From contig NZ_JOAK01000004.1 of assembly GCF_000720455.1 (NCBI RefSeq), positions 248,001 to 312,000 of the forward strand: a stretch of DNA of 64,000 bases. The letters are read 5' to 3'. The stretch is from Streptomyces virginiae. Its GTDB lineage: Bacteria; Actinomycetota; Actinomycetes; Streptomycetales; Streptomycetaceae. The notes beneath the pieces are model-generated. The model was not told where the DNA came from. It was given only the letters and a program-made list of their open reading frames with translations, and made no database searches. Below are positions 11,529-19,471 of this stretch, one piece after another; within the stretch, counting starts at the first letter, position 1, and each line of letters starts with the position of its first letter. Both the position numbers and the translations under genes were made by a program.

Positions 11529-12725
11529 TCAGGGGGTCGGCAGGGGCCGCTTCTCCAGCGCCGCGGCCATCACCTCCGGGAACAGGTCGGGGGTGCAGGC
11601 GAAGGCCGGCGCACCGAGCGCGGCGAGGGCCGCGGCGTGCTCGCGGTCGTAGGCCGGGGCCCCCTCGTCGGACAGGGCCAGCAGGGTCACGAACTCCACG
11701 CCCGCCCCCTTCATGGCGGCCACGCGCTTCAGCATCTCGTTGCGTATGCCGCCCTCGTAGAGATCGCTGATGAGGACGACGACCGTGTCGGCGGGTCGGG
11801 TGATCTTCGACTGGCAGTAGGCGAGGGCGCGGTTGATGTCCGTGCCGCCGCCCAGCTGGGTGCCGAAGAGGACGTCGACCGGGTCGTCGAGCTGGTCGGT
11901 CAGGTCGACGACGGCGGTGTCGAACACGACCAGGCGGGTGGCGATCGAGCGCATGGAGGCGAGGACCGCGCCGAAGACGGAGGCGTAGACGACGGAGGCC
12001 GCCATCGAACCCGACTGGTCGATGCAGAGGATCACCTCTTTCTTCACCGATTGCGCCGCCCGGCCGTATCCGATCAGCCGCTCGGGGACGACGGTGCCGT
12101 ATTCGGGCAGGTAGTTCTTGAGGTTGGCGCGGATCGTGCGGTCCCAGTCGATGTCGCGGTGGCGCGGGCGGCTGATCCGGGCGGAGCGGTCGAGCGCTCC
12201 GGTGAGGGTGGCCCGGGTGCGGGTCGCGAGCCGCTTCTCCAGCTGCTCCACCACCTTGCGGACCACGGCCCGCGCCGTCTCCTTCGTCGTCTCGGGCATC
12301 GCCTTGTTCAGGGAGAGCAGGGTGCCGACCAGGTGGACGTCCGGTTCGACGGCTTCCAGCATCTCCGGCTCCAGCAGCAGGGCGGACAGTCCGAGCCGCT
12401 CGATCGCGTCGCGCTGCATCACCTGGACCACCGAGCTGGGGAAGTACGTCCGGATGTCCCCGAGCCAGCGGGCCACGTTCGGCGCGGAGCCGCCGAGCCC
12501 GGCCGAGCGCGCCGCCCCCGAGGTCCTGCGCGGACCCCCTTCGCCGCCTCCGCCGTACAGCGCGCCGAGCGCCGCGTCCATCGCCGCGTCCCGCCCGGTC
12601 AGCGCGTGCCCGGTGCCGTCCGCGTCTCCGCCGCCGAGCACCATCCGCCACCGCCGCAGCCGCTCGCCTCCGGCGGAGCCCGCGGTGTCCTGTGCCGCCG
12701 CCACGCCCATGTCCGTACCGCTCAT
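11529..12725 (-). CDS. VWA domain protein of the MoxR/DUF5682 cluster
   Basis: Protein of 398 residues. The C-terminal half is a von Willebrand A domain with an intact MIDAS: DQSGS at residues 236-240 after VKKEVILCI, a later GGGTDINRA and VVVLISDLYEGG. The N-terminal half (about 75-220) is helical and includes a basic repeat of Arg/Ser near 180-200. Such VWA proteins act with MoxR AAA+ ATPases as metal-dependent adaptor or chelatase-like subunits. The ATG at 12725 is chosen over 12755 because GGAGGGG sits 8 bases upstream. It is the third gene of MoxR-DUF5682-VWA, 40 bp after DUF5682. Its substrate is unknown. Confidence 0.85.
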   Translation of the reverse strand: MSGTDMGVAAAQDTAGSAGGERLRRWRMVLGGGDADGTGHALTGRDAAMDAALGALYGGGGEGGPRRTSGAARSAGLGGSAPNVARWLGDIRTYFPSSVVQVMQRDAIERLGLSALLLEPEMLEAVEPDVHLVGTLLSLNKAMPETTKETARAVVRKVVEQLEKRLATRTRATLTGALDRSARISRPRHRDIDWDRTIRANLKNYLPEYGTVVPERLIGYGRAAQSVKKEVILCIDQSGSMAASVVYASVFGAVLASMRSIATRLVVFDTAVVDLTDQLDDPVDVLFGTQLGGGTDINRALAYCQSKITRPADTVVVLISDLYEGGIRNEMLKRVAAMKGAGVEFVTLLALSDEGAPAYDREHAAALAALGAPAFACTPDLFPEVMAAALEKRPLPTP

Positions 12726-12765
12726 CCGTCGATCCCCTCCACTTGTCGTATCCACCGGCCGGCGC

Positions 12766-15057
12766 TCAGGCGGCCGCGACCCCGTCGGGAGACGCGAGCA
12801 GCATCCGGACCAGCTCCGTCACCGCGTCCGCCCGCTCCGGATCGAGATCGGGGGCGAAGCCCTCGGGAGCCGATCCCGTCGCGCGCGCCGCCTGCGCGGA
12901 GGCGGCCGGACCGCGCCGGACCAGCTCGCCCAGCGTCCGCTTCACCCCCGGCTCGTACGCCCCGAACGTCCGCCTCAGCAGCGGCAGCACGTCGGTGAAG
13001 GCGCGCTCCGGGACCCCCACCAGCCAGGTGTCGATCAGGCCCAGCAGCCGGTCGTCGTGGACCAGCAGGGTGCCGCCGCCCGAACTCCCGCCCGCGAAGC
13101 CCTCGATCCAGCCCGCCGCGTCGGCGGGCGGGGCCGCCGGGGACAGCGCGAGCCCCATCAGCCGGGCCGTCTCCCCGGCCTCCAGCCGCCCGTCGTCGAG
13201 GAGGAGCCGGGCCGCCCTGCCACGGATGACGCCCGGCACGGTGTCCCGGTCCGCCAGCGTCCGCAGCACGGCGGACCAGCGCTCCCGCAGCCCGTCGTCG
13301 GCGTCCGCGAGCAGGCCGACCGCCGCGTGCACGCCGTCCACGTGGCCGCGCAGCTCCGCCGCCGCGTCGGCGTCCAGACCGGCCGCGCAGGCCGGCGGGA
13401 GCGCGACGCATATCCGCTCGGCGAGCCCGGCCGCGACCGCGCCGAGCGCCGTCGCGTCGGTGCCCCGTACGTCCCCGTACCGCAGTGAACGGGCCAGCGC
13501 CGGCAGGGCCTTCGCGAGCCGTGCGACGTCGGTGTCCAGCGCGGCGCGGTCCGCGAGGGCCCGCAGTACGGCGGGCAGCGCCTCGGACAGTCCGGCGAGG
13601 AGGCACTTTTCGGCCAGCTCCGTCACCTCGCCCAGCTCCTCGGCGGCCGCCGCGTCCGCCTCCGCCCTGGCGGTGGCCGCGGCGAGGACGGTGGTGCCCC
13701 AGATCCCGGCCTCGGCCACCCGGACGGACAGCTCCGGCTCCCAGCGCAGCCGCCAGGTCTCCCGGAAGGTTCCGGTGCTGCTGCGGGAGGCGGTCGGGGT
13801 GCCCCAGCCGATGCCGAGCAGCCGCAGCCGGTGCAGCAGCAGGGACTTGGCCGCGTCGGTGTCCTTGCGCAGGTCGAGTTCCAGCTCGCGTTCCTGCGCC
13901 TCCGCCTTGAGCCGCAGGGAGCGCTGCTGCCGCGTCAGGTCCCGCTGGAGGGGGACGACGGGCGCCCCGTCCGGGACCTCGCCGAGCACGTCGCCGACGA
14001 CGAGGCGGTCCTCGATGAGCGCGAGCGGTATGTCGGAGCCGTCGCACATCACCGCCCGCACCGATTCCAGGGTCTCGGTCAGACCGGGCAGGGGCCGCCC
14101 CCGCATCGCGGCCAGGGTCTCGGCGAGCCGGACCGCTTCGATGACGTGCGCCGAGGACACCTGCCGGTCCTCCTCGCGCAGCAGGCCGGCGACCTTGGTC
14201 AGCCACCGCTCGACGGGCCGGTCCCGGGCGGAGAAGAGGTGGGCGTACCAGCCGGGCGAGGTGATCCCCGCTCCGTACCCGCCGGCCCGGGCGAGCCGGC
14301 GGTGGGTCCACGGCACCCAGGTGGTCTCCACCTTGACCTTCGCCAGCCCCGTCAGCAGCGCCTTGTCGGCGGCCACGGTGGTCTTCGCCCGCAGCGCCGG
14401 GACGTGCCAGGCGCCGCACACCACGGCGTACCCGTCGCCGAACTCGCGGCGGGCGGCCCGCATCCGCTGGCGCATGTACGCCTCGCGGACCAGGTCGCGG
14501 TGGTGGCCGCCGTCGCCGTAGGTCTCGCGCAGGGCGCCCATGGCCTCCCCGAGCGCCTCGAACGCGCCGAGCGCCTCCTCGCCCGCACCGCCGGTCCCCC
14601 GGTGCTCGACGACGTCCTCCCACCAGCGCTCGGGGTCGTCGTACCCGGCGGTCCCGGCGAGCACCGCGAGGGGGTCCAGCCTGACCGCGTCGGACTCGGC
14701 ACGGTCGGGGTCCGGCTCCCCGGCGGCGGCCAGTGAGTGGGCGGCGGGCAGGTCCATGAAGCGGACCGGTACGCCCGCCTCCTGTGCCCAGCGGATCGCG
14801 ACCCACTCCGGGGAGAAGTCGGCGAGCGGCCAGAACGCGGCCCGGCCCGGGTCGTCCGCGGCGTGCGCGAGCAGCGCCACGGGCGGCCGCATGCCGGGGT
14901 CGGCGGCCAGTTCCAGCAGTGCGTCGCCCTCGGGCGGCCCCTCGATCAGCACGGCCGCCGGGCGGGCCTCGTCCAGCGCGGCCCGGACCGCGCGGGCCGA
15001 TCCGGGTCCGTGGTGGCGCACGCCGAGGAGCAGCGGGCCCTGGCGGGCGGTGCTCAT
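12766..15057 (-). CDS. DUF5682 family protein (TraB/PrgY/EreA-like N-terminal motifs)
   Basis: Protein of 763 residues. The N-terminal third shows GVRHHGPGS (12-20), VLIEGPPEG (36-44), FWPLADFSPEW (75-85) and CGAWHVPAL (214-222). That spacing of a His-His motif, an acidic strand end and a second His motif recalls the TraB/PrgY/GumN and erythromycin-esterase-like metal-dependent hydrolase fold; this is inference. The remainder is a long Ala/Leu/Arg-rich helical region, perhaps repeat-like. The start is the ATG at 15057, which overlaps the MoxR stop by 4 bp; further upstream the frame only shadows the MoxR gene. In context it is probably the client or effector subunit of a MoxR-VWA machine. Confidence 0.8.
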   Translation of the reverse strand: MSTARQGPLLLGVRHHGPGSARAVRAALDEARPAAVLIEGPPEGDALLELAADPGMRPPVALLAHAADDPGRAAFWPLADFSPEWVAIRWAQEAGVPVRFMDLPAAHSLAAAGEPDPDRAESDAVRLDPLAVLAGTAGYDDPERWWEDVVEHRGTGGAGEEALGAFEALGEAMGALRETYGDGGHHRDLVREAYMRQRMRAARREFGDGYAVVCGAWHVPALRAKTTVAADKALLTGLAKVKVETTWVPWTHRRLARAGGYGAGITSPGWYAHLFSARDRPVERWLTKVAGLLREEDRQVSSAHVIEAVRLAETLAAMRGRPLPGLTETLESVRAVMCDGSDIPLALIEDRLVVGDVLGEVPDGAPVVPLQRDLTRQQRSLRLKAEAQERELELDLRKDTDAAKSLLLHRLRLLGIGWGTPTASRSSTGTFRETWRLRWEPELSVRVAEAGIWGTTVLAAATARAEADAAAAEELGEVTELAEKCLLAGLSEALPAVLRALADRAALDTDVARLAKALPALARSLRYGDVRGTDATALGAVAAGLAERICVALPPACAAGLDADAAAELRGHVDGVHAAVGLLADADDGLRERWSAVLRTLADRDTVPGVIRGRAARLLLDDGRLEAGETARLMGLALSPAAPPADAAGWIEGFAGGSSGGGTLLVHDDRLLGLIDTWLVGVPERAFTDVLPLLRRTFGAYEPGVKRTLGELVRRGPAASAQAARATGSAPEGFAPDLDPERADAVTELVRMLLASPDGVAAA

Positions 15058-16160
15058 ACCGTCACCTCCCGGCAGGCCCGGTAGAAGTCCTTCCAGCCGT
15101 CGCGCTCGCGGACCACGGCCTCCAGGTACTCCTGCCAGACGACCTTGTCTGCCGCCGGGTCGCGCACGACCGCGCCGAGGATCCCCGCGGCCACGTCGGA
15201 GGGGCGCAGGACGCCGTCCCCGAAGTGGGCCGCCAGGGCCAGGCCGTTGGTGACGACGGAGATGGCCTCGGCGGTGGAGAGGGTGCCGCTGGGCGACTTC
15301 ACCTTCGTGCGGCCGTCGCCGGTGACGCCGTCGCGCAGCTCGCGGAAGACGGTGACGACGCGGCGGATCTCCTCCAGGCCCTCGGGCACGGCCGGCAGGT
15401 CGAGGGCGCGGCCCATCTGGTCGACGCGGCGGGCCACGATGTCGACCTCGGCGTCCGCGGTGGCGGGCAGCGGCAGGACGACGGTGTTGAAGCGGCGGCG
15501 CAGCGCGCTGGAGAGCTCGTTGACCCCGCGGTCGCGGTCGTTGGCGGTGGCGATGAGGTTGAAGCCGCGCACGGCCTGGACCTCTTCGCCGAGCTCCGGT
15601 ATCGGCAGGGTCTTCTCGGACAGGACGGTGATGAGGGTGTCCTGGACGTCGGCGGGGATGCGGGTGAGCTCCTCGACGCGGGCGGTCATGCCGTCGGCCA
15701 TGGCCCGCATGACGGGGCTGGGGACGAGGGCTTCGCGGCTGGGGCCCTGGGCGAGGAGCCGGGCGTAGTTCCAGCCGTACCGGATGGCCTCTTCCGGGGT
15801 GCCGGCGGTGCCCTGGACGAGGAGGGTGGAGTCGCCGCTGACTGCGGCCGCGAGGTGCTCGGACACCCAGGTCTTGGCGGTGCCGGGAACACCGAGCAGG
15901 AGCAGGGCGCGGTCGGTGGCCAGGGTGGTGACCGCGACTTCGACGATGCGGCGCGGGCCGACGTACTTGGGTGTGATCACCGTGCCGTCGTCGAGGGTGC
16001 CGCCGAGCAGGTAGGTGGCGACGGCCCACGGGGAGAGCTTCCAGCGGGTCGGGCGGGGCCTGTCGTCGGCGGCCGCCAGGGCTTTCAGTTCGTGCGCGAA
16101 GGCGTCTTCGGCGTGCGGTCGCAGCGCCTCGGCGCCGATGCCGTTCTCGGGCTTGCTCAT
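15054..16160 (-). CDS. MoxR-type AAA+ ATPase
   Basis: Protein of 368 residues. Walker A is GVPGTAKT at 90-97. The MoxR block RIPADVQDTLITVLSEKT follows, then the sensor-1 region FNLIATANDRDRGVNELSSA and an arginine pair (LRRRFNTVVLP). The Walker B position reads V-E-E-L instead of the usual D-E. MoxR ATPases remodel proteins together with VWA partners. The ATG at 16160 follows GAGGGGGACC; the longer reading to 16244 overlaps the divergent promoter. It is the first gene of the leftward operon and is 134 bp from the divergent SWIM gene. Confidence 0.88.
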   Translation of the reverse strand: MSKPENGIGAEALRPHAEDAFAHELKALAAADDRPRPTRWKLSPWAVATYLLGGTLDDGTVITPKYVGPRRIVEVAVTTLATDRALLLLGVPGTAKTWVSEHLAAAVSGDSTLLVQGTAGTPEEAIRYGWNYARLLAQGPSREALVPSPVMRAMADGMTARVEELTRIPADVQDTLITVLSEKTLPIPELGEEVQAVRGFNLIATANDRDRGVNELSSALRRRFNTVVLPLPATADAEVDIVARRVDQMGRALDLPAVPEGLEEIRRVVTVFRELRDGVTGDGRTKVKSPSGTLSTAEAISVVTNGLALAAHFGDGVLRPSDVAAGILGAVVRDPAADKVVWQEYLEAVVRERDGWKDFYRACREVTV

Positions 16161-16294
16161 GGTCCCCCTCCAATGCTCGGCAGCCGCTCCCGACTGCTGT
16201 TCCCACGGTGCACCACGCCACTGACAACGCCCCCCACTCATCACGTCGTTGCAGGTCAGGGCGATTGTCAGAGGGGGTCTCTACGGTGGTTCAC

Positions 16295-17638
16295 ATGACT
16301 GAGCAGGGGGTCCGCTGGACGGCGGAACAGGTACTGGCTCTGGCTCCTGACGATGCCTCACGCAAGGCGGGTGGCAAACTCGGCGGGGCGGGGCCATGGT
16401 CACAGATCGGAGGTTCCGCTTCCGGTTCTGTGTGGGGGTTGTGCAAGGGCAGCGGGAGCAATCCGTACCGGACGGTCGTCGACCTGACGGGACCGGCCTA
16501 CAAGTGCTCCTGCCCGAGCCGGAAGTTCCCGTGCAAGCACGCACTGGGACTGCTCCTGCTCTGGTCCGCCGAGGGGGTCGGTGAGCCCGGGGAGGCGCCG
16601 GACTGGGCCGCGCAGTGGCTGGCGGACCGTGCGGCCAAGGCCGCGCGGACGGCGGCCGGGGCGACCGGGCCGGTGGACGAGGAGGGGGCACGGCGCCGGG
16701 CCGAGCGGCGGGCGGCGCGCATCGGGGCGGGCGTGGGCGAGCTGGAACAGCGGCTGGCCGACCTGATGCGCGGCGGCCTCGCAGGCCAGGAGCACGCGGG
16801 GTACGCGGCGTGGGAGGAGACCGCCGCCAGGATGGTGGACGCCCAGGCGCCCGGACTGGCCGGTCGCGTAAGGGAGTTGGGGACGATACCCAGTTGCGGC
16901 CCCGGCTGGCCCGCCCGGATGCTGGAGGAGGCGGCGCTGCTGCACCTGCTGGACCGGGCCTGGATGGGGGTGACGGGGCTTCCGGACCAGTTGGCGGCGA
17001 CCGTGCGCAGCCGGGTGGGACTGCCGGCCTCCGGGGAGGGGGAGGCCGTACGGGACCGCTGGCTGGTGCTCGCCCAGTACGACTCGGCGTCGCCGGACGG
17101 CCGGCTCACCACCCGGCGGATATGGCTGCGGGGGCTGTCGGGGGGACGGCCCGCGCTGGTGCTGGACTTCGGACCGCCCGGGCGCCCGCCGGGGCTGGCG
17201 CTGCCGGTGGGGCTGGTGCTGGAGGCGGAGATGCGTTTCCGGGCCGGCTCGGCGGGGCTGCGGGCGGACCTCGGGGAGAGGTTCGCGGCGGCCGCGCCGT
17301 GCACGGAGGTTCCGGCCGGGGTGAGTACACGGGCGGCCCTGGAGGCCTACGGGGCGGCGCTGCGGGAGGACCCGTGGCTGGAGTCCTGGCCGGTGGTGCT
17401 CGGTCCGGTGGTTCCGATACCGGGAGAGCTCGGCTGGCAGCTGGCGGACGCGGAGGGCACCTCCGCCCTGCCGGTGCCCCTCACCGGGGCGGGCAGCCGC
17501 TCCCGCGGAGGGCTGTGGCAGCTGGCCGCGTTGTCGGGCGGGGGCCCGGTGACGGTCTTCGGCGAGTGCGGCCACCGCGGGTTCACCCCGCTGACGGCAT
17601 GGCAGCCCGGCTCTTCCGAGCCGGTCGCCCTGTCCTGA
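16295..17638 (+). CDS. SWIM zinc-finger protein
   Basis: Protein of 447 residues. A SWIM finger is intact near the N-terminus: C71-x-C73-x6-C80-x-H82 in KCSCPSRKFPCKHALG. SWIM domains bind zinc and mediate DNA or protein contacts. The rest is an uncharacterised helical/beta region ending at residue 447. The first 30 residues (WTAEQVLALAPDDASRKAG) are the usual N-terminus of these cluster-linked proteins. Starts at GTG 16286 (8 bases after GAGGGGG) and ATG 16295 are both possible. It is divergent from the MoxR operon and precedes the DUF5691 gene. Confidence 0.85.
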   Translation: MTEQGVRWTAEQVLALAPDDASRKAGGKLGGAGPWSQIGGSASGSVWGLCKGSGSNPYRTVVDLTGPAYKCSCPSRKFPCKHALGLLLLWSAEGVGEPGEAPDWAAQWLADRAAKAARTAAGATGPVDEEGARRRAERRAARIGAGVGELEQRLADLMRGGLAGQEHAGYAAWEETAARMVDAQAPGLAGRVRELGTIPSCGPGWPARMLEEAALLHLLDRAWMGVTGLPDQLAATVRSRVGLPASGEGEAVRDRWLVLAQYDSASPDGRLTTRRIWLRGLSGGRPALVLDFGPPGRPPGLALPVGLVLEAEMRFRAGSAGLRADLGERFAAAAPCTEVPAGVSTRAALEAYGAALREDPWLESWPVVLGPVVPIPGELGWQLADAEGTSALPVPLTGAGSRSRGGLWQLAALSGGGPVTVFGECGHRGFTPLTAWQPGSSEPVALS

Positions 17639-17815
17639 GCGGGACAGGGAACGGACAACGACATCGCAGGGGGCCTGGGGGGTCCTGTGCCGTCACACGA
17701 GGACGGCCGGGAGAGGTGCGGCGCCGGGGGGCGCCGTGGACGCAACGACGAGGAGCCGGGGGGCTTTCATGAACGACAACCACGCCAGTTGACCGAAGCC
17801 GTACGAGGAACAGAC

Positions 17816-17850
17816 TGCCCCGGTCCCGCGGAGGGGGCGGGACCGGGGCA
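17816..17850 (+). terminator. strong hairpin between the SWIM and DUF5691 genes
   Basis: A perfect 14-bp inverted repeat (17816-17829 with 17837-17850, 7-base loop) lies 41 bases before the DUF5691 start. It is either a terminator or attenuator that separates SWIM from DUF5691, or part of the DUF5691 leader. A seven-codon ORF (MNDNHAS, 17769-17792) with upstream GGAGCCGGGGGG precedes it. The intervening gap 17639-17890 holds no larger gene. Confidence 0.55.
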
Positions 17851-17890
17851 CCGGACACGACCGAGGACGAGCAGCGAGGGAGGGGCACCG

Positions 17891-19471
17891 ATGGGCGAGG
17901 GTGACGAGGGGTACGGGGAGTGGCAGGAGCTGGTCGGCGCCGCGCTGCTGGGCACCGACCGGCGCCGGGGCGGGGGTCCGGCCGGCTCGCCGGAGGCACT
18001 GCTGGACGCGGCGGCCGTGCACGCCGTCCGCCGCCGGGCCGGGTTGCGGCCGGCGGGGGCGCGTCCGCGCCCGGAGCCCGCGCCCCGCGATCCCCGGCCG
18101 GTGCCCCCGGAGGCGGCGGGCCACCGGCTCGCGCAACTGCTGGCGGGCCGCGGCGGCCCGGTGAACGGCGGCGGGCGGCGCGGGTCGGCCCCGGACCTGA
18201 CGGAGCTGCTCCCGCAGTGGCTGGCCGCGGCCGGACGGCACGGCTACCGCGCGCCCGACGCGCTCGTACCGGCACTGCTGGACGCCGCCCGGGCCCGCAG
18301 CGACCTGCGCCCGCACGCCCTGGCCCTGGCCGGGACGCGGGGGCTGTGGCTGGCGCGGATGAATCCCGACTGGCGCTTCGCCCTGCGCGGCGGGGCGGGC
18401 GGCGGGGAGCTGCCGGACGTGACCGACCCCTCCGCGGTGGAACGGCTGTGGGAGGAGGGGCTGTTCGCGGAGCGGGTGGCGCTGCTGGGCGCGGTACGGG
18501 CCCACGAACCGGCGGCCGCGCCGCGGCTGCTGGCGACGACCTGGGCGAGCGAACGGGCCGAGGACCGGCTGATGTTCCTCGATTCGCTGAGGTCGGGGCT
18601 GTCCTTGGAGGACGAGTCCTTCCTCGAGGCGGCGCTGGGCGACCGCAGCCGCAACGTGCGTGCGACGGCCGCCGAACTGCTGTCCGCGCTGCCGCAGTCG
18701 GCGCTGGCGGGACGGATGGCCGAGCGCGCGCTGGCCTGCGTGGGCCCGGAGGGGGTGACGCCGCCGGCCGAGTGCGATGCGGGGATGCTCCGCGACGGGG
18801 TGGTCAAGCGGCCGCCCGCCGGACGTGGGGAGCGCGCCTGGTGGCTCGGCCAACTGGTGGAGGCGGCGCCGCTGTCGTGCTGGCGGGAGCGGTTCGGGGG
18901 CCTCGGCCCAGCCGAGATGGTCGCCCTGCCGGTGGCCGCGGCCGAGGGCTGGACGGAGGAACTGCACGCCGCGTGGTGCCGGGCCGCGGTGCGCCAGCGG
19001 GACCCGGAATGGTCGCGGGCCCTGCTCGGCCCGGCGTCGGCACCGCCCGCGGCGGGTCCCGGCACGGCCTCCCTCGCGGAGCGGGCCAAACTGCTGGAGA
19101 CCCTGCCCGACGCGGAACGGGCCGCATGGGTCGCGGAGTTCATACGGGCCCACGGGCTCTCCGAGGCCTTCCAGCTGCTCGGGGTGTGCGTGGTGCCGTG
19201 GGCGGGAGCGCTGGGCCGGGCGGTGGTGGACGCGCTGGACATCGCCCGGGAGGCGGGCAGCTACCCGTGGAGCTTCAGCGGGGTGATGGGCCTGGCCGAG
19301 CGCTGCCTCGACCCGGCCGAGGCCGTCCGGCTGGAGGCCCTGACCGCAGCCGCGGAGGAACCGCCGGACGCGTCCCCGGGCGCGGCGGCGTACTGGGCGG
19401 AGGCCTTCCAGCGGCTGGTGGCCACGCTCCGGCTGCGCGCGGCGATGCTGTCGGAACTGGCCCCGGCCTGA
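17891..19471 (+). CDS. DUF5691 family protein
   Basis: Protein of 526 residues, Ala/Leu/Arg-rich and almost wholly helical, compatible with HEAT-like repeats (for example DRSRNVRATAAELLSALPQS near 255-275). The N-terminus WQELVGAALLGTDRR is typical of the DUF5691 family. The ATG at 17891 follows GGGAGGGGCACC. The gene belongs to the SWIM/MoxR/DUF5682/VWA neighbourhood and its family co-occurs with those genes. No catalytic motif is visible; a scaffold role is inferred from the helical content only. Confidence 0.8.
   Translation: MGEGDEGYGEWQELVGAALLGTDRRRGGGPAGSPEALLDAAAVHAVRRRAGLRPAGARPRPEPAPRDPRPVPPEAAGHRLAQLLAGRGGPVNGGGRRGSAPDLTELLPQWLAAAGRHGYRAPDALVPALLDAARARSDLRPHALALAGTRGLWLARMNPDWRFALRGGAGGGELPDVTDPSAVERLWEEGLFAERVALLGAVRAHEPAAAPRLLATTWASERAEDRLMFLDSLRSGLSLEDESFLEAALGDRSRNVRATAAELLSALPQSALAGRMAERALACVGPEGVTPPAECDAGMLRDGVVKRPPAGRGERAWWLGQLVEAAPLSCWRERFGGLGPAEMVALPVAAAEGWTEELHAAWCRAAVRQRDPEWSRALLGPASAPPAAGPGTASLAERAKLLETLPDAERAAWVAEFIRAHGLSEAFQLLGVCVVPWAGALGRAVVDALDIAREAGSYPWSFSGVMGLAERCLDPAEAVRLEALTAAAEEPPDASPGAAAYWAEAFQRLVATLRLRAAMLSELAPA

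Follow-up and report, generated by a model that had tools for sequence, protein, structure and literature searches.

A conserved MoxR-DUF5682-VWA gene module of Streptomyces virginiae, homologous to Escherichia coli yehLMPQ, with PafBC-type elements in its divergent promoters

We analyzed a 64,000-nucleotide stretch of the Streptomyces virginiae genome (assembly of 8.3 Mb in 132 contigs; the stretch lies on contig 4), hereafter called the window, which carries a cluster of five genes encoding a MoxR ATPase, a DUF5682 protein and a VWA protein and, divergently, a SWIM zinc-finger protein and a DUF5691 protein. Gene-neighbourhood and co-occurrence surveys showed that the five families belong together as one conserved module, associated far above chance, and sequence comparison identifies four of the five proteins as homologues of YehL-YehM-YehP-YehQ of Escherichia coli K-12. 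Our best explanation, whose chances we regard as about evenly balanced, is that the cluster would constitute one DNA-damage-inducible protein-remodelling machine, in which the AAA+ and VWA proteins would drive a hydrolase of the TIKI fold aimed at stressed DNA. What is new here is the N-terminal hydrolase-like domain of DUF5682 and the occurrence of PafBC-type elements, which belong to the SOS-independent DNA-damage response, in the divergent promoters; the YehLMPQ relationship and the promoters were both absent from the first-pass annotation of this DNA, and our literature search found no paper naming DUF5682 or DUF5691.

Conservation and Gene Arrangement of the Module

We looked for DUF5682 and DUF5691 together, genome by genome, in three phyla, that of S. 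virginiae itself (296 genomes), that of a Planctomyces locus (149) and that of a Thiofilum locus (249). DUF5691 exceeded its cut-off in 33 genomes, 31 of which also contained DUF5682, and the two genes lay at most 3.4 kb apart in 29 of these 31. Within the own phylum, all 18 genomes with DUF5691 carried DUF5682 beside it, within 3.4 kb, while DUF5682 occurred in 21 genomes in total; the corresponding figures were 8 of 10 (DUF5682 over cut-off in 18 in total) for the Planctomyces-locus phylum and 5 of 5 (11 in total) for the Thiofilum-locus phylum. The two DUF5691 genomes lacking DUF5682, both from the Planctomyces-locus phylum, had matches of 28.0 and 27.4 bits over 80–92 residues at a cut-off of 27. 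Fisher tests for co-occurrence gave P values of 4.7e-26, 3.5e-7 and 6.0e-8 for the own, Planctomyces-locus and Thiofilum-locus phyla, respectively, which are naive values as the genomes are related. In the latter two phyla, the gap between DUF5682 and DUF5691 was 1.15–1.8 kb, the size of a MoxR gene, in 11 of 13 positive genomes; the exceptions were G399, with the genes on different contigs, and G334, where both genes are kept on contig 1 (2.51 and 2.86 Mb) though about 345 kb apart, which suggests functional linkage without gene linkage. DUF5682 without DUF5691 was common, and in the own phylum G204 and G124 have other partner sets and the copy of G259 lies on a 4.4-kb contig. The first-pass annotation had set such a neighbourhood survey beforehand as the possible refutation of a joint role, and the five families were found to travel together.

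A scan of one genome per species, covering at least 84,980 species, confirmed at least 582 relatives. We retained the 80 top-ranking loci; because the ranking used resemblance to a single DUF5682 (L027), they are not a random sample. Among those whose sequence extends 3.5 kb or more on the side in question, MoxR adjoined DUF5682 in 61 of 64 and VWA did so in 63 of 68; at a further locus, L110, the DUF5682 domain was not complete. Among the five VWA misses, L093 and L107 had a VWA gene in broken frames, and the remaining three were true orphans (L040:9998-12445, L043:5628-8180 and L069:10007-12514, from Blastocatellia, Planctomycetaceae and an unclassified bacterium), with neither MoxR nor VWA in their 10-kb flanks (5.7 kb on one side of L043). 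By record title, the module loci came from Actinobacteria, Pseudomonadota, Planctomycetes, Verrucomicrobia, Firmicutes, Chloroflexi and others, besides E. coli K-12. DUF5682/YehM-like copies were also present in 36 of 72,556 plasmid records, some of them chromosome-sized, from E. coli, Rhizobium and others (CP088875, CP137936 and NZ_CP103756 among them).

The MoxR–DUF5682–VWA core occurred in four ARRANGEMENTS (arrangements a to d). Arrangement a, DUF4132–MoxR–DUF5682–VWA–SWIM, is exemplified by E. coli yehI-yehLMPQ. Arrangement b, SWIM–DUF5691–MoxR–DUF5682–VWA, is the type of the window; it was collinear in all nine non-Streptomyces actinobacterial loci of the type (L124-L132) and divergent in all eight sampled Streptomyces, in the window and in S. 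coelicoflavus (L156). Arrangement c begins with a protein of about 1,550 residues without Pfam match, followed by MoxR, DUF5682, VWA and SWIM, and is represented by a second copy in this genome (L007:7736-19900, on G000 contig 6 at about 172.7–184.9 kb; L179), which is divergent from the window copy, has DUF5682 and VWA fused in a single frame and has a DUF4132-domain gene just upstream. Arrangement d, VWA–MoxR–DUF5682, has a distant DUF5682 and no SWIM gene detected (L136-L139). Profile comparisons gave no support for a relationship of DUF5691 to DUF4132 or to the protein of about 1,550 residues at the second locus (probabilities of 0.6 and 0.2%), and the comparison of DUF4132 with DUF5682 gave 11% (E 7e-4, a single comparison). 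The cluster occupied a fixed chromosomal place in all eight sampled Streptomyces, and the system was found in nine of nine Streptomyces genomes among the matches listed.

The homology to the E. coli proteins was evident by BLAST for three members, with identities of 41% between MoxR and YehL (356 aligned positions), 27% between DUF5682 and YehM and 36% between VWA and YehP. BLAST of the SWIM protein against YehQ gave no match, and comparison of the two family profiles (hhalign) gave 98.2% probability over 424 columns, with six other pairs at 0.1–11%. The two clusters share these four families and the order MoxR-DUF5682-VWA, but E. coli has DUF4132 (YehI) upstream where the window has DUF5691 and all its genes run in one direction, whereas in Streptomyces the SWIM-DUF5691 pair is split off divergently, under PafBC-type promoters. 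YehL is one of two MoxR ATPases of E. coli K-12, and the "YehL subfamily" and its membership have been described (PMC3893208); within the partial texts covered, our literature search found no function of YehLMPQ.

Promoter Elements and the DNA-Damage Regulon

The 134-bp divergent promoter region (16161..16294) contains two elements of the PafBC/RecA-NDp type, placed head to head. The element towards SWIM (16265..16287, plus strand; TTGTCAGAGGGGGTCTCTACGGT) reads from 16266 as a perfect TGTCRG-N10-TA-N3-T, and the element towards MoxR (16205..16227, minus strand; TTGTCAGTGGCGTGGTGCACCGT) reads TTGTCAGTG-N8-CACCGT, with one mismatch (CA for TA). The same result, a perfect SWIM site and one mismatch in the MoxR site, was obtained against the Mycobacterium tuberculosis PafBC motif, which is TGTCGG or TGTCAG (also TGTCAC)-N10-TA-N3-T (PMC8151990). 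The -10-like part of the SWIM-side element stops 7 bp short of the SWIM start codon (window 16265-16297), a spacing that suggests a leaderless transcript. When the window was searched with the pattern TTGTCRGTG-N8-TANNNT, one mismatch being allowed, these two were the only sites in 64 kb, with 0.05 expected. All ten Streptomyces examined had a consensus SWIM-side site and, towards MoxR, a site of the form seen in the window (TTGTCAGTG with CA).

Across 59 actinobacterial loci, 27 perfect sites were detected in 53,472 strand-bases upstream of operon heads, where 0.41 were expected, and 17 in 2,228,488 strand-bases elsewhere in these loci, while the reversed pattern gave none and one, respectively; the Poisson P of the operon-head enrichment (2e-39) is nominal, the loci being related. 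A perfect site was present in 26 of the 59 loci, in arrangements a, b and c, and in the genera Streptomyces, Lentzea, Actinoplanes, Kibdelosporangium, Micromonospora, Spirillospora, Actinomadura and Allokutzneria. The other 33 had none in the counted regions, some of these being cut contigs or loci whose operon head was drawn too narrowly; L073, L136-L138, L140 and L143 have sites farther from the operon head than the counted region. In L136-L138, a perfect element stands about 2–3 kb ahead of the VWA domain.

In the S. virginiae genome, a stricter form of the element occurred 22 times and its reversed control not at all. One downstream frame was assigned to each element by a mechanical rule (length and GC content at third codon positions), so that frame starts are not gene starts, and 12 of the 22 frames had a Pfam match, the other ten having none. 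The element precedes recA, uvrC, a member of the uracil-DNA glycosylase superfamily, polA (DNA polymerase I exonuclease), a dnaX-type gene and an AlkZ-like glycosylase gene, and ruvA lies about 0.6 kb downstream of its element; the remaining matched frames were SNF2-type (DUF3670), WGR, Mrr-type endonuclease, HEAT_2 and DUF4132. Since this DUF4132 gene, with its perfect element upstream, sits just ahead of the second DUF5682 locus, both DUF5682 copies of the genome carry the signature. The WGR frame (L176, G000 contig 52) encodes a WGR-domain beta-propeller protein behind a perfect element; YehF, encoded close to the E. coli yeh cluster, likewise belongs to the WGR family (PF05406). WYL regulators gave 11 matches in the genome, including two tandem pairs (C16 and C38), either of which might be PafB/PafC.

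Taken on their sequence, these elements give moderate support to DNA-damage control of the cluster in Actinobacteria, from which we infer that control might be exerted by PafBC itself and that DNA damage might induce the genes through it. Outside Actinobacteria, no damage-type promoter was found at the loci, and the common function might for this reason be broader than DNA damage. LexA-type boxes, searched with five patterns (CTGT-N8-ACAG, TACTGT-N8-ACAG, GTTC-N7-GTTC, CGAAC-N4-GTTCG and GAAC-N4-GTTC) on the given strand, by which the non-palindromic GTTC pattern was half tested, and judged by eye, amounted to 0 to 16 scattered sites in each of the non-actinobacterial loci and E. coli, which lends no support to SOS control there.

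Fold and Conserved Residues of DUF5682

The DUF5682 protein, the YehM homologue (12766..15057, minus strand; 763 amino acids; Pfam DUF5682 8e-290), shares 98% identity with S. virginiae and S. lavendulae proteins. AlphaFold2 models placed an N-terminal domain at about residues 1–270, helices at 275–355 and a C-terminal helical solenoid at about 435–763. A GxxH…E…GxxH motif had been noticed ahead of any fold search, and the two GxxH motifs with the conserved glutamate proved invariant (H15, E39, G215 and H218). Likewise, H15, P18, E39, E84, D102, R191 and H218 were invariant in 67 sequences, and the invariant residues held in all or all but one of 110–111 domains.

Because the helical repeats swamp the full-length model in a structure search, the N-terminal domain was modelled alone (AlphaFold2; predicted local distance difference test score 91.8). 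Its best VIA structural matches include ChaN, HopBA1, EreC and BcR135-type structures, and the predicted domain has the common alpha/beta fold of the TIKI/ChaN/Ere superfamily. Foldseek searches with both the full-length and the N-domain models gave zero matches at E<=0.001; the DUF5682 sequence profile against the PDB gave two chance-level matches only (best E 0.45, a designed protein), and the single-sequence search gave no match. The resemblance of the N-terminal fold to the TIKI/ChaN/erythromycin-esterase superfamily is moderately supported by modelling. Given the invariant GxxH…E…GxxH residues and this predicted fold, DUF5682 is probably a hydrolase, and the hydrolase-like character that the first-pass annotation ascribed to it is borne out as a likeness. 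DUF5682 shares those residues and a predicted alpha/beta core with the TIKI/TraB/ChaN/erythromycin-esterase superfamily, but differs from it in being mounted on a large helical solenoid, in being genetically tied to MoxR and VWA and in having no PDB relative by sequence profile.

Genes of the Locus

The partners of DUF5682 are a MoxR AAA+ ATPase of the YehL type (15054..16160, minus strand; 368 amino acids; Pfam AAA_5 3e-37), a CoxE-like VWA protein homologous to YehP (11529..12725, minus strand; 398 amino acids; VWA_CoxE 3e-61), a SWIM zinc-finger protein whose homology to YehQ spans most of its length (16295..17638, plus strand; 447 amino acids; SWIM 3e-6) and a DUF5691 protein (17891..19471, plus strand; 526 amino acids; DUF5691 4e-164). 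The five genes, their coordinates and their families by Pfam agree with the first-pass annotation, as does the 4-bp overlap of the MoxR stop and DUF5682 start (ATGA at 15054-15057). Its description of a tight set suits the gaps of 40 bp between DUF5682 and VWA and of 134 bp between the divergent MoxR and SWIM genes, but not the 252 bp between SWIM and DUF5691. The MoxR P-loop (G90/P92/G93/T94/K96) and the metal ion-dependent adhesion site (MIDAS) of the VWA protein (D236xS238xS240…T295…D321) are intact, as had been claimed, and the P-loop was invariant in 101 of 101 MoxR domains and all five MIDAS residues in 100 of 100 VWA domains. The presumed Walker B of MoxR has Glu-Glu (E163/E164; window 15669-15674) in place of Asp-Glu, as do all 101 MoxR domains of this kind. 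For DUF5691, proposed as a helical scaffold, a HEAT match was seen (Pfam, E 0.039), though below the cut-off. None of the NCBIfam models matched the five proteins over its cut-off.

Discussion

The module, the homology, the invariant residues and the promoter elements are well supported, and beyond them we infer the physical assembly of a machine, its catalysis (hydrolase activity) and its substrate. The reading of a MoxR-VWA remodelling machine, put forward in the first-pass annotation, was kept as the natural one. In such a machine, the MoxR AAA+ ring and its VWA partner would spend ATP either on a protein substrate, opening it or handing it over to DUF5682, or on activating DUF5682 itself. 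This protein would offer a TIKI/ChaN/Ere-fold active site on a helical solenoid and would probably act as a hydrolase of the His-Glu kind, with peptidase or esterase activity the likeliest. Target recognition would fall to SWIM and DUF5691, which would together guide the machine to what is most likely a protein complex sitting on stressed DNA. Both halves would be co-induced from the back-to-back PafBC-type promoters once DNA is damaged or over-wound.

Unlikely, though first among the alternatives, is that the MoxR-VWA pair is a maturation chaperone, with DUF5682 or another, unknown metalloenzyme as client, which inserts a cofactor or releases the enzyme as CoxD/NorQ do, the damage link being regulatory only. 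MoxR proteins of known role are mostly maturation factors (PMC3893208), the VWA protein is CoxE-like and the single-frame DUF5682-VWA fusion of the second copy would suit such a pair, but a simple maturation pair would seem to accommodate SWIM and DUF5691 (or DUF4132) poorly; the neighbourhood maps covered the system's own families. It is also improbable that the TIKI/ChaN-fold domain is a binding module for haem, iron or a peptide and no enzyme: ChaN, a haem-binding member, is among its best structural matches, whereas the pattern of invariant His, Glu and Arg in DUF5682 resembles that of catalytic superfamily members (PMC6254334).

The module may already have a phenotype in Streptomyces coelicolor. 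We take S. coelicolor A3(2) to be close to S. anthocyanicus (S. violaceoruber group), whose DUF5682 relative has 815 amino acids, 86.02 kDa and a Gly/Pro-rich start, as has that of Streptomyces sp. DSM 41013 (86.07 kDa). The gene sucC, presumably SCO4808, would lie near SCO4804, and the sucC neighbourhood and the polarity to SCO4805 are consistent with MoxR-DUF5682-VWA. SCO4804 is a glycine/proline-rich protein of 815 amino acids and 86.04 kDa (PMC8120823), and since gene order, the 815 amino acids and the mass of 86.0 kDa match, it is very probably this DUF5682, with SCO4803 and SCO4805 as the MoxR and VWA genes beside it; length alone is weak evidence, as 815 amino acids occurred in 9 of 120 relatives among the matches listed, and five computed masses span 85.69–86.07 kDa. 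The published gaps at SCO4804 (103 and 171 bp; PMC8120823) differ from the window spacing, and in S. coelicoflavus DUF5682 is preceded by a gap of about 126 bp and overlaps the next gene by 4 bp. Our literature search found a single paper naming any of SCO4801-SCO4806.

A transposon in sco4804 lowered the topA transcript to ~70% and TopA to ~50%, overexpression of SCO4804 raised topA promoter activity, and TopA depletion induced sco4804 and adjacent genes about eightfold (PMC8120823). The same study reported non-specific DNA binding of purified SCO4804 in vitro, no specific promoter binding, no interaction with TopA and unaltered plasmid supercoiling; it treats SCO4804 as a hypothetical regulator, and its main text, in the parts available, mentions neither MoxR nor von Willebrand, nor the TIKI fold or the promoter element. 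These effects on topA and the DNA binding would suit a system that regulates chromosome topology or transcription, with DUF5682 indirectly activating topA and gyrase genes, the role put forward for SCO4804; we consider this quite improbable, as the lack of specific promoter binding or TopA interaction, the absence of a helix-turn-helix domain from the Pfam results for all five proteins and hydrolase-type residues invariant across phyla stand against it.

Like RavA-ViaA, the system pairs an AAA+ MoxR with a VWA protein bearing a MIDAS, but the window MoxR is of a different subfamily and the ViaA model scored 20.5 bits at a cut-off of 500. Adjoining MoxR and VWA genes also recall the vWA-MoxR-VMAP ternary conflict systems (PMC7159879), from which the window differs in having no VMAP or effector domain by Pfam among its five proteins, those the scan covered; a term search of the main text of that paper found YehL, YehM, SWIM, DUF4132, DUF5682 and TIKI all absent. 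An anti-phage or conflict system related to these was down-weighted as highly improbable: the shared pairing, a weak likeness to bpMoxR (23.4 bits at a cut-off of 27) and the copies in plasmid records, a few of which are chromosome-sized, face zero matches to PADLOC models at E<=0.01, the missing VMAP and effector domains, the fixed locus in the eight sampled Streptomyces and the presence in all nine listed genomes of the genus, while promoters pointing to a DNA-damage regulon leave the conflict or envelope-stress role, as first suggested, unsupported.

A bolder version of the remodelling machine, which we consider doubtful, would be a bacterial clearer of DNA-protein crosslinks or stalled complexes, in which SWIM, with DUF5691 (or DUF4132), recruits a MoxR/VWA unfoldase to DNA and the trapped proteins are passed on to a TIKI-fold protease of a new class, all under SOS-independent damage control; if true, it would be an independent counterpart of eukaryotic Cdc48/p97 plus SPRTN/Wss1. 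On the preferred reading of a damage-inducible remodelling machine, an anonymous cluster of several phyla gains a probable enzymatic core and a stress, and becomes a testable DNA-damage system; this could account for the SCO4804/topA phenotype, so far unexplained, and gives a clue to YehL of E. coli K-12. With promoters that bear a DNA-damage-response signature, this apparently ancient machine may serve cells in coping with damaged or over-twisted DNA.

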